Shown: piece by piece, positions 61,170 through 63,480 of the stretch | Layout of the letters: the number at the start of each line of letters is the position of its first letter | How positions within the stretch are numbered: position 1 is the stretch's first letter | Origin: Shewanella sp. MTB7 | Lineage (GTDB): Bacteria > Pseudomonadota > Gammaproteobacteria > Enterobacterales > Shewanellaceae | Assembly: GCF_027571385.1 (NCBI RefSeq) | Contig: NZ_CP085636.1 | Location: 3,472,001-3,536,000, forward strand | DNA length: 64,000 nt | Direction: 5' to 3' | Translations under genes and position numbers: made by a program | The notes under the pieces: generated by a model | The model's input: the letters and a program-made list of their open reading frames with translations, nothing else | The model's database searches: none | What the model was told of the DNA's origin: nothing

Positions 61170-61274
61170 TGGTGGGCCGTGAAGGATTCGAACCTTCGAC
61201 CAATGTGGTAGTTAAAAGTAAAGCCAACTGTGCTCTGATTAAAAAGCAGCGACTGAGCAATTCCTTATCTACCC
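61170..61274 (-). pseudogene. Degenerate tRNA-Lys-like copy d1
   Basis: 105 nt. The 3' part (T arm GGTTCGAATCC and ACGGCCCACCA) equals the intact genes. The 5' acceptor strand is replaced by GGGTAGATAAGG, about 13 nt extend the D loop and about 7 nt the anticodon arm, so the anticodon stem cannot form. Last copy of the transcript; no clear terminator follows. Confidence 0.75.
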
Positions 61275-61300
61275 TCCGTTATTTAGCCACTCAGAGAAAG

Positions 61301-61405
61301 TGGTGGGCCGTGAAGGATTCGAACCTTCGACCAATGTGGTAGTTAAGAGTAAAGCCAACTGTGCTCTGATTAAAAAGCAGCGACTGAGCAATTCCTTATC
61401 TACCC
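61301..61405 (-). pseudogene. Degenerate tRNA-Lys-like copy d2
   Basis: 105 nt, differs from d1 by one base in the extended anticodon arm (AAGAGT instead of AAAAGT on the plus strand). T arm and CCA end unchanged from intact genes. Confidence 0.75.
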
Positions 61406-61431
61406 TCCGTTATTTAGCCACTCAGAGAAAG

Positions 61432-61507
61432 TGGTGGGCTGTGAAGGATTCGAACCTTCGACCAATTGGTTAAAAGCCAACTGCTCTACCGACTGAGCTA
61501 ACAGCCC
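61432..61507 (-). tRNA. tRNA-Lys(TTT)
   Basis: 76 nt, complete cloverleaf: acceptor GGGCTGT/ACAGCCC, D stem GCTC/GAGC, anticodon loop CTTTTAA, T loop TTCGAAT, encoded CCA. T-class acceptor. Confidence 0.95.
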
Positions 61508-61565
61508 TTCTGGTACTTAGCTTCTGAATTCATCTACTGTAGAAGTAAATCCACTGTCAGAAAAG

Positions 61566-61670
61566 TGGTGGGCCGTGAAGGATTCGAACCTTCGACCAAT
61601 GTGATAGTTAAGAGTAAAGCCAACTGTGCTCTGATTAAAAAGCAGCAACTGAGCAATTCCTTATCTACCC
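61566..61670 (-). pseudogene. Degenerate tRNA-Lys-like copy d3
   Basis: 105 nt with the same insertions as d1/d2 and an intact T arm; changes include GTGATAG for GTGGTAG and AGCAACT for AGCGACT (plus strand). Confidence 0.75.
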
Positions 61671-61696
61671 TCCGTTATTTAGCCACTCAGAGAAAG

Positions 61697-61772
61697 TGGT
61701 GGGCTGTGAAGGATTCGAACCTTCGACCAATTGGTTAAAAGCCAACTGCTCTACCGACTGAGCTAACAGCCC
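61697..61772 (-). tRNA. tRNA-Lys(TTT)
   Basis: 76 nt, identical to the copy at 61432-61507, T-class acceptor GGGCTGT/ACAGCCC, encoded CCA. Adjoins the next intact gene with no degenerate copy between. Confidence 0.95.
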
Positions 61773-61829
61773 TTCTGGTACTTAGCTTCTGAATTCATCT
61801 ACTTGAAAGTAGATCCACTGTCAGAAAAG

Positions 61830-61905
61830 TGGTGGGCCGTGAAGGATTCGAACCTTCGACCAATTGGTTAAAAGCCAACTGCTCTACCGACTGAGCTAAC
61901 GGCCC
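61830..61905 (-). tRNA. tRNA-Lys(TTT)
   Basis: 76 nt, C-class acceptor GGGCCGT/ACGGCCC, anticodon loop CTTTTAA, encoded CCA. Confidence 0.95.
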
Positions 61906-61963
61906 ATCTAGTATTACATCTCTGAATTCATCTACTGTAGAAGCAAATCCACTGTCAGAAAAG

Positions 61964-62068
61964 TGGTCGACCGTGAAGGATTTGAACCTTCGAGCAATGT
62001 GGTCGTTAAGAGTAAAGCCAACTGTGCTCTGATTAAAAAGCAGCGACTGAGCAATTCCTTATCTACCC
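61964..62068 (-). pseudogene. Degenerate tRNA-Lys-like copy d4
   Basis: 105 nt; besides the shared insertions the acceptor 3' strand is altered (ACGGTCGACCA end) and the T loop reads TTCAAAT, so even the conserved T arm has drifted. Confidence 0.75.
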
Positions 62069-62094
62069 TCTGTTATTTAGCCACTCAGAGAAAG

Positions 62095-62170
62095 TGGTGG
62101 GCCGTGAAGGATTCGAACCTTCGACCAATTGGTTAAAAGCCAACTGCTCTACCGACTGAGCTAACGGCCC
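62095..62170 (-). tRNA. tRNA-Lys(TTT)
   Basis: 76 nt, C-class acceptor, full cloverleaf and encoded CCA. Confidence 0.95.
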
Positions 62171-62228
62171 ATCTAGTATTACATCTCTGAATTCATCTAC
62201 TGTAGAAGTAAATCCACTGTCAGAAAAG

Positions 62229-62333
62229 TGGTCGGCCGTGAAGGATTTGAACCTTCGACCAATGTGGTCGTTAAGAGTAAAGTCAACTGTGCTCTGATTA
62301 AAAAGCAGCGACTGAGCAATTCCTTATCTACCC
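62229..62333 (-). pseudogene. Degenerate tRNA-Lys-like copy d5
   Basis: 105 nt; acceptor end ACGGCCGACCA, T loop TTCAAAT, and GTTGACTTT replacing GTTGGCTTT in the anticodon arm. Confidence 0.75.
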
Positions 62334-62359
62334 TCCGTTATTTAGCCACTCAGAGAAAG

Positions 62360-62435
62360 TGGTGGGCTGTGAAGGATTCGAACCTTCGACCAATTGGTTA
62401 AAAGCCAACTGCTCTACCGACTGAGCTAACAGCCC
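62360..62435 (-). tRNA. tRNA-Lys(TTT)
   Basis: 76 nt, T-class acceptor GGGCTGT/ACAGCCC with the matching T-class spacer; full cloverleaf, encoded CCA. Confidence 0.95.
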
Positions 62436-62493
62436 TTCTGGTACTTAGCTTCTGAATTCATCTACTGTAGAAGTAAATCCACTGTCAGAAAAG

Positions 62494-62569
62494 TGGTGGG
62501 CCGTGAAGGATTCGAACCTTCGACCAATTGGTTAAAAGCCAACTGCTCTACCGACTGAGCTAACGGCCC
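62494..62569 (-). tRNA. tRNA-Lys(TTT)
   Basis: 76 nt, C-class acceptor; adjoins the previous intact gene (134-bp spacing) without a degenerate copy. Confidence 0.95.
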
Positions 62570-62627
62570 ATCTAGTATTACATCTCTGAATTCATCTACT
62601 GTAGAAGTAAATCCACTCTCAGAAAAG

Positions 62628-62732
62628 TGGTCGGCCATGAAAGTTTCGAGCCTTCGACCAATGTGATAGTTAAGAGTAAAGCCAACTGTGCTCTAATTAA
62701 AAAGCAGCGATTGAGCAATTCCTTATCTACCC
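62628..62732 (-). pseudogene. Degenerate tRNA-Lys-like copy d6
   Basis: 105 nt; T arm broken (GGCTCGAAACTTTCATGG), plus changes in the D-loop insertion (TTAATTAGAGC) and a CTCAATCG D arm. Confidence 0.75.
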
Positions 62733-62758
62733 TCCGTTATTTAGCCACTCAGAGAAAG

Positions 62759-62834
62759 TGGTGGGCCGTGAAGGATTCGAACCTTCGACCAATTGGTTAA
62801 AAGCCAACTGCTCTACCGACTGAGCTAACGGCCC
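62759..62834 (-). tRNA. tRNA-Lys(TTT)
   Basis: 76 nt, C-class acceptor, full cloverleaf and encoded CCA. Confidence 0.95.
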
Positions 62835-62892
62835 ATCTAGTATTACATCTCTGAATTCATCTACTGTAGAAGTAAATCCACTGTCAGAAAAG

Positions 62893-62997
62893 TGGTCGGC
62901 CATGAAAGTTTCGAGCCTTCGACCAATGTGATAGTTAAGAGTAAAGCCAACTGTGCTCTGATTAAAAAGCAGCGACTGAGCAATTCCTTATCTACCC
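62893..62997 (-). pseudogene. Degenerate tRNA-Lys-like copy d7
   Basis: 105 nt; shares the broken T arm of d6, so these two copies arose by duplication after that mutation. Confidence 0.75.
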
Positions 62998-63023
62998 TCT
63001 GTTATTTAGCCACTCAGAGAAAG

Positions 63024-63099
63024 TGGTGGGCCGTGAAGGATTCGAACCTTCGACCAATTGGTTAAAAGCCAACTGCTCTACCGACTGAGCTAACGGCCC
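63024..63099 (-). tRNA. tRNA-Lys(TTT)
   Basis: 76 nt, C-class acceptor, full cloverleaf and encoded CCA. Confidence 0.95.
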
Positions 63100-63157
63100 A
63101 TCTAGTATTACATCTCTGAATTCATCTACTGTAGAAGTAAATCCACTGTCAGAAAAG

Positions 63158-63262
63158 TGGTTGGCCGTGAAGAATTTGAACCTTCGACCAATGTGGTAGT
63201 TAAGAGTAAAGCCAACTGTGCTCTGATTAAAAAGCAGCGACTGAGCAATTCCTTATCTACCC
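63158..63262 (-). pseudogene. Degenerate tRNA-Lys-like copy d8
   Basis: 105 nt; acceptor end ACGGCCAACCA and T arm GGTTCAAATTC, with the same insertions as the other copies. First degenerate copy in the transcript. Confidence 0.75.
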
Positions 63263-63288
63263 TCTGTTATTTAGCCACTCAGAGAAAG

Positions 63289-63364
63289 TGGTGGGCCGTG
63301 AAGGATTCGAACCTTCGACCAATTGGTTAAAAGCCAACTGCTCTACCGACTGAGCTAACGGCCC
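63289..63364 (-). tRNA. tRNA-Lys(TTT), first of the array
   Basis: 76 nt, C-class acceptor. Its 5' flank is unique (hairpin TTGTTC/GAACAA at 63369-63384) and carries the promoter, so this is the promoter-proximal gene. Confidence 0.95.
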
Positions 63365-63445: not shown

Positions 63446-63480
63446 GGCGCCTATAATACCTTTTTCATCTTCGCATGCAA
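63446..63480 (-). promoter_or_regulatory. Stable-RNA promoter of the tRNA-Lys array
   Basis: On the minus strand: -35 TTGCAT (63475-63480), 16-base spacer, -10 TATTAT (63453-63458), then the GC-rich discriminator AGGCGCCC. Such a discriminator is typical of promoters under stringent (ppGpp/DksA) control. It lies about 85 bases before the first tRNA. Confidence 0.75.

Follow-up and report, generated by a model that had tools for sequence, protein, structure and literature searches.

Two transfer RNA (tRNA) operons of Escherichia coli are among the closest known counterparts of the array described here. The lysT operon sits downstream of tol-pal-ybgF/cpoB, and the tyrT operon has repeats (rttR), associated with the rtT RNA, that end in a 3′ piece of the tRNA. 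Both have a counterpart in a tRNA-Lys array of Shewanella sp. MTB7, at positions 61170–63364 of the 64,000-nucleotide (nt) stretch that we analysed (contig NZ_CP085636.1, 3,472,001 to 3,536,000; hereafter the window). The genome consists of one contig of 6.37 Mb. Like lysT, the array is a tRNA-Lys cluster lying after tolB-pal-cpoB; unlike lysT, it contains tRNA-Lys only, in tandem, with degenerate tRNA copies between the genes. Like the rttR repeats, these copies lie inside a tRNA operon and end in a tRNA 3′ piece. The rttR repeats hold a short 3′ piece only, whereas here most of the tRNA is kept with its loops expanded, the copies alternate with the genes and several isotypes are involved. 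Ordinary bacterial tRNA pseudogenes are tRNA-derived and no longer tRNA-like to ARAGORN, which is also true of the window copies, but the latter have expanded loops, interleaving and a conserved insert. No such copies are described in the literature titles and abstract openings that we examined.

We found that the window array is one case of a Shewanella-wide class of degenerate tRNA copies. Comparison between species revealed signs of constraint in one part of the copies: an insert in the anticodon loop is strongly conserved between species whose neutral sites are saturated, and the 5′ segment predicted to pair with it has drifted yet stayed complementary.

Structure of the array and conservation of its copies

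A script located nine intact tRNA-Lys(TTT) genes and eight degenerate copies of 105 nt each, all on the minus strand, in the order I-D-I-D-I-D-I-I-D-I-D-I-I-D-I-D-D along the transcript (I, intact; D, degenerate). Neighbouring intact genes start 265 bp apart where a copy lies between them (six times) and 133 or 134 bp apart where none does (twice). These counts, lengths and spacings are exactly those of the original prediction. The alternation that it also described is regular, though imperfect, because the final two units of the transcript, D1-7 and D1-8 (61170–61405), are both degenerate and lie in direct tandem, 131 bp apart. The units are, in transcript order:

63289..63364, minus strand: intact tRNA-Lys(TTT) 1 (ARAGORN, RF00005)
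63158..63262, minus strand: degenerate copy D1-1 (script)
63024..63099, minus strand: intact tRNA-Lys(TTT) 2 (ARAGORN, RF00005)
62893..62997, minus strand: degenerate copy D1-2 (script)
62759..62834, minus strand: intact tRNA-Lys(TTT) 3 (ARAGORN, RF00005)
62628..62732, minus strand: degenerate copy D1-3 (script)
62494..62569, minus strand: intact tRNA-Lys(TTT) 4 (ARAGORN, RF00005)
62360..62435, minus strand: intact tRNA-Lys(TTT) 5, T-A variant at one acceptor pair (ARAGORN, RF00005)
62229..62333, minus strand: degenerate copy D1-4 (script)
62095..62170, minus strand: intact tRNA-Lys(TTT) 6 (ARAGORN, RF00005)
61964..62068, minus strand: degenerate copy D1-5 (script)
61830..61905, minus strand: intact tRNA-Lys(TTT) 7 (ARAGORN, RF00005)
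61697..61772, minus strand: intact tRNA-Lys(TTT) 8, T-A variant at one acceptor pair (ARAGORN, RF00005)
61566..61670, minus strand: degenerate copy D1-6 (script)
61432..61507, minus strand: intact tRNA-Lys(TTT) 9, T-A variant at one acceptor pair (ARAGORN, RF00005)
61301..61405, minus strand: degenerate copy D1-7; anticodon-loop insert region CTTTACTCTTAACTACCACA at 61335–61354 (genome 3533335–3533354)
61170..61274, minus strand: degenerate copy D1-8, 3′ end of the array, in tandem with D1-7 (script)

ARAGORN called nine tRNA-Lys(ttt) genes on the minus strand within 61432–63364, and all nine match RF00005, the tRNA model of Rfam, at 78 bits each. None of the eight degenerate copies was called by ARAGORN, and no Rfam model, RF00005 included, matches them at E ≤ 1. 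Their derivation is visible in gapped alignment against intact tRNAs, where they score 61–91 (the best score of the reversed-sequence control was 30, over 33 tRNA loci). The copies, which we call family D1, lie between the intact genes in the transcribed orientation, each running from GGGTAGATAAGG to CCA over exactly 105 nt. Aligned with the intact gene, they have lost the 5′ acceptor strand and had their 5′ end replaced, and they retain GCTCAGTCG; the D-arm 5′ strand, the 5′ side of the anticodon arm, the T arm, the acceptor 3′ strand and the CCA are all kept. The D-loop has gained about 11 nt, the anticodon loop 5 nt, and two more places 2–4 nt. An intact gene and a D1 copy have been amplified together as one composite 265-bp unit, and this proposal of the original prediction is borne out. 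Two other identities were tried and rejected: a coding open reading frame across the copies, by eye, on the ground that the length of the D-loop insert shifts by single bases between copies, and a mobile or viral element, a 23-nt exact pattern having given 0 matches in viral_contigs.

Species pairs were compared at the fourfold-degenerate (4-fold) sites of cpoB and over parts of the copy. In 12 pairs drawn from the window genome (G000) and G003, G010, G011, G012 and G027, the 16-nt anticodon-loop insert TACTCTTAACTACCAC was 0.86–1.00 identical, against 0.35–0.49 (saturated) at the cpoB 4-fold sites; the corresponding ranges were 0.53–0.89 for the D-loop insert and 0.29–0.68 for the 5′ segment. 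Three closer pairs (4-fold identity 0.78–0.88) gave 0.91–1.00 for the insert. Since the intact genes do not have the insert, conversion with them cannot maintain it, and since the 5′ segment is unconserved, transfer of the whole element is not easily the source of the insert identity. The same insert was also found behind unrelated 5′ parts in further genomes, by a search pattern that itself demands part of the insert. Taken as neutral pseudogenes, the copies should have no part conserved beyond neutral sites; the insert is so conserved, and the 5′ segment and the T arm of the window copies look relaxed.

Single-strand folding of copies from six species predicted a long hairpin, made by the new 5′ segment and the anticodon-loop insert, plus a T-arm hairpin. 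In the five species other than that of the window, the folding z values against shuffles were −1.08, −2.19, −2.64, −3.14 and −2.78. When 5′ segments and inserts were swapped between species, own partners paired at −7.2 kcal/mol and swapped ones at −6.2 kcal/mol, with 0 of 2000 permutations as good, in the 19 genomes that fitted the pattern among the 21 given (S. benthica and G072 dropped out). The conserved insert and the preserved helix together support the suggestion, made at the outset, that the copies may have a job. The other suggestion made there, that the array answers a high demand for tRNA-Lys, gained no support.

Degenerate copies across Shewanella

R1, a sequence-only model built from the D1 family, matched 78 of the 129 genomes of the genus at E ≤ 0.01; in 24 of the 129 the score was at least 50 bits. 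Among 247 sampled genomes of the order it matched 19, 12 of them from the genus; the seven outside it have one weak match each (best E 9.8e-4). The comparison of relatives on which the original prediction had been staked came out in its favour: degenerate tRNA-Lys copies of any kind stand near intact genes in 21 of the 28 sampled Shewanella Lys loci, against 2 of the 13 outgroup loci. In this count L024 is negative, its sole match being an intact gene cut by a contig end, and L008 is positive, its first match being a contig-end piece and two others real; one further Shewanella locus is without an intact Lys gene, and several of the copy-less loci are cut by contig ends. When the outgroup Lys arrays were rescanned for any isotype (11 of the 12 genomes), 2 of 12 loci had one copy each. 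Both scans combined, degenerate copies occur in 2 of the 12 outgroup genomes, singly, and one of these copies is a simple tRNA 3′ half that has no inserts. In the nearest outgroup genome, which belongs to the same family, the Lys array contains 11 intact Lys genes and 0 degenerate copies.

Alternation is seen in many Shewanella arrays, in which the copy families and the periods differ, and in the window genome further isotypes carry copies as well; the view of the window array as a special case is not supported. Over the 33 tRNA loci of the window genome, a scan with a cut-off of 33 (the reversed-sequence control reached 30) gave 30 rows, or 27 after removal of two overlap repeats and one locus-edge piece, with copies of Lys, Glu, Gly, initiator Met, Thr, Pro, Asp, Leu and Ser. 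G020 gave 20 such rows, some of them matches to a 93-nt loop-expanded Lys copy named tRNA-Asp(atc), and G150 gave 46 (cut-off 36); for the reversed-sequence control of these two genomes the scores are given as none of at least 30 and as a top of 33, in either case under the cut-off. Isotypes other than Lys thus carry degenerate copies in all three Shewanella genomes scanned (G000, G020 and G150).

The inserts were placed on the tRNA fold using 59 insert events, counted after removal of repeats, from class I tRNAs of the three genomes; the count excludes copies of Leu, Ser and Tyr and any match to the 93-nt copy named Asp(atc). Of the 59, 29 lie in the D- and anticodon loops, borders included, against about 13 expected (p 7.5e-6). 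All loops or loop borders hold 40 of the 59, against 41 of 75 sites (p 0.028), and at these values the strict claim that every insertion lies in a loop was dropped. Among 155 distinct tRNA-Lys copies (46 loci, 44 genomes), inserts of at least 4 nt number 0 in the T stem and acceptor stem and three in the T loop, as seen by local alignment, which cannot see inserts close to the tRNA ends.

Some individual loci deserve mention. In the window genome, loop-expanded Glu, initiator Met, Gly, Thr, Pro and Asp copies lie in or beside their own arrays (L051, L053, L057–L061, L071, L079, L088). In G150 (L168, L169), tRNA-Leu(taa) has ten degenerate 3′-part copies beside it, several with a short CTACT-type insert. 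Three loop-expanded Lys copies of relatives still pass RF00005 (one in L032 at 39.8 bits, two in L048 at 31.2 bits). The 93-nt copy of G020 (L043/L151) owes its name tRNA-Asp(atc) to ARAGORN, which points to possible mis-annotation in such genomes.

Possible role of the copies

With moderate confidence, and on the evidence of sequence comparison, we read the D1 copies as a working, co-transcribed, tRNA-derived RNA element that is constrained in its expanded loop. The copies would be non-tRNA elements, derived from tRNA-Lys and carried inside the tRNA-Lys transcript, each folding into a long hairpin of the 5′ segment with the anticodon insert, then a T-arm hairpin and the CCA. The conserved loop may be recognised in cis while the long untranslated precursor is being transcribed or processed, and the element may have spread within arrays via unequal recombination and conversion. 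As the most concrete candidate we propose an antitermination site resembling boxA, CUCUU-AAC in the copies compared with CUCUUUAAC in the ribosomal RNA (rRNA) leader of the same genome; Nus factors binding the copies would then keep RNA polymerase going through the array. Alternatively, such working copies may serve as a spacer for processing or folding. A boxA-like role in antitermination, or a role in processing, is plausible but unproven.

The likeness to boxA is partial. In two rrn operons of the window genome that were read by eye, the leader boxA is CGCTCTTTAAC and the spacer boxA CGCTCTTTAAAAATTTGG; the Lys insert resembles the rRNA sites (CGCTCTTTAACAATTTATC in the leader) at the core CTCTT.AAC, and differs from them in being one T short, in having A for G and in being predicted to be paired. 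On the transcribed strand, CTCTTAAC of the insert stands against the boxA core CUCUUUAA, again one T short. Exact copies of the E. coli-type boxA, TGCTCTTTAACA, occur at two places in the genome, both outside the tRNA arrays that we read. The likeness was first noticed in G000 and was then counted in G150 and G020 with a predefined motif (CTCTTT or CTCTTAA). Forward and reverse counts in degenerate copies were 17 and 6 in G150, and 15 and 2 in G000, the discovery genome. Those in spacers were 21 and 6 (G150), 0 and 0 (G020), and 24 and 0 (G000), and those in flanks 44 and 73, 18 and 25, and 64 and 101, respectively. In the arrays of the three genomes, CTCTTT was the top one of 15 hexamers of the same composition, with 28 distinct contexts forward and 11 reverse (next hexamer, 17); 12 of these contexts are in G000, 12 in G150 (next, 7) and four in G020. 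It is enriched in the arrays of G000 and G150 but not in those of G020. By division of the counts per kb, CTCTTT is about twofold in excess in the arrays and the other hexamers about onefold.

Several observations weigh against a working element of this kind. The window copy folds no better than shuffles (z −0.37), and RNAalifold, on an automatic alignment of 22 rows, missed the long helix and reported no pair changed on both sides. The swap test ignores relatedness, and 2 of its 19 species have a positive z, pairing worse than shuffles. Identity of the insert falls to 0.68–0.72 in six pairs with the G033 clade. Half of the variable sites of the window copies (8 of 16) are at positions 83–105 of the 105, so the T-arm and acceptor part looks relaxed. 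Some arrays have no copies (Asn and Arg/Ser in G000; five intact Lys genes in G017, L018), and copies are therefore not obligatory. As to boxA, the insert is without one U and has A in place of G, and the site would be buried in the predicted D1 helix, an argument either against a simple boxA or in favour of a switch. The motif count in the degenerate copies of G020 is 3 forward and 2 reverse, G000 is the genome in which the motif was noticed first, and CTCTTT is not the top hexamer in G020 (four contexts, against five for two others). Among the 15 hexamers CTCTTT also leads in flanks (98, next 89), so its excess in arrays is about twofold; we therefore treat antitermination as the most concrete candidate rather than as demonstrated. 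It is doubtful, in our judgement, that the idea extends to the genus, with copies of many isotypes acting as cis elements whose expanded D- and anticodon loops present boxA-like loops at regular intervals and recruit Nus factors against termination; if this were true, it would be a case of a retooled tRNA used as an antitermination element.

A serious alternative, to which we give somewhat less credence than to working copies, is that the copies are neutral hitchhikers, that is, dead copies from array edges carried along by selection on the number of intact genes. Unequal crossing-over would produce composite units, and the regular alternation would follow by itself. Arrays do often end degenerate (the final unit is degenerate in 30 of 42 loci and the first intact in 28 of 39, with a few genomes counted twice), the genus has many unlike copy families and periods, the T arm varies among the window copies and no significant fold was found in the window species. 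Against hitchhiking stand an anticodon-loop insert conserved well beyond neutral sites and beyond the adjoining segment of the same element, pairing kept despite turnover, inserts concentrated in two loops, and outgroup copies that are only single and in 2 of 12 genomes.

The bias of inserts towards loops would also follow from a mutational process that inserts short sequences at tRNA-gene loops, such as cruciform-loop break repair, without any function, and a mean folding z of −1.08 among ten dissimilar D-arm insert families agrees with it. We regard this as unlikely, because it leaves the later conservation of one insert unexplained; moreover, the bias over all loops is modest, and inserts near the acceptor ends are invisible to local alignment.

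The copies might instead release a trans-acting small RNA or a tRNA decoy, such as a sponge that takes up an RNA-binding protein or a tRNA-cutting enzyme. The element is separable, with a CCA end and predicted hairpins of its own, and E. coli tyrT is reported to release such an RNA (rtT). Nevertheless, a search of the whole genome with the 20-nt insert region, allowing up to 3 mismatches, gave no good match outside the array: eight matches are the copies and two lie elsewhere, the same number as in the reversed control. No Rfam family, RtT included, covers the copies at E ≤ 1. This explanation seems improbable to us. An assembly artefact is hardly credible: tandem repeats are in general hard to assemble, but the D1 copies differ from each other at 1–11 sites pairwise (16 of the 105 sites are variable) and are therefore not one copy multiplied by an assembler, and alternating arrays homologous to this one turn up in many other, separate assemblies.

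If the copies are functional, they would show a route by which tRNA genes can reach a new RNA function, with part of the fold kept and the loops rebuilt. tRNA arrays would then hold built-in regulatory spacers that annotation skips because tRNA finders mostly detect intact genes only, and how long untranslated tRNA transcripts escape early termination would become testable. If they are only hitchhikers, the arrays still record the gain, loss and homogenisation of tandem tRNA genes.

Probable promoter and neighbourhood of the array

Transcription probably starts from the following site:

63453..63480, minus strand: probable promoter, TTGCAT - 16 nt - TATTAT, then a GC-rich discriminator AGGCGCCC

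Its −35 element is weak, and a consensus promoter scan omits it. In 10 of the 11 Shewanella species read, TATTATAGGCGCCC is present upstream of the first intact gene, between cpoB and the array, and its constant position suggests that a single promoter serves the whole array. The array lies downstream of tolB-pal-cpoB, genes with the Pfam domains TolB_N, OmpA and TolA_bind_tri plus TPR, and is followed by a gene for a DcaP-type outer membrane protein. The examined Lys locus has cpoB in 7 of 7 genomes. The final codons of cpoB (L031) are the boxA-core-like TGCTCTTTAATC in G000, G011, G010 and G150 but not in G033 and G019, probably a coincidence, because they are coding and located before the promoter.

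Within the array, one acceptor pair of the intact genes is compensated: three of them (62360, 61697 and 61432) have GGGCTGT/ACAGCCC and the other six GGGCCGT/ACGGCCC. The T-A genes come with their own upstream spacer (...AAGCTAAGTACCAGAA). A terminator scan listed the hairpin CCACTTTTCTGACAGTGG, which includes the CCA end, eight times with weak T tails; the hairpin (GAGAGTGG in one copy) follows units of the array at eight sites within 61551–63160 on the minus strand.

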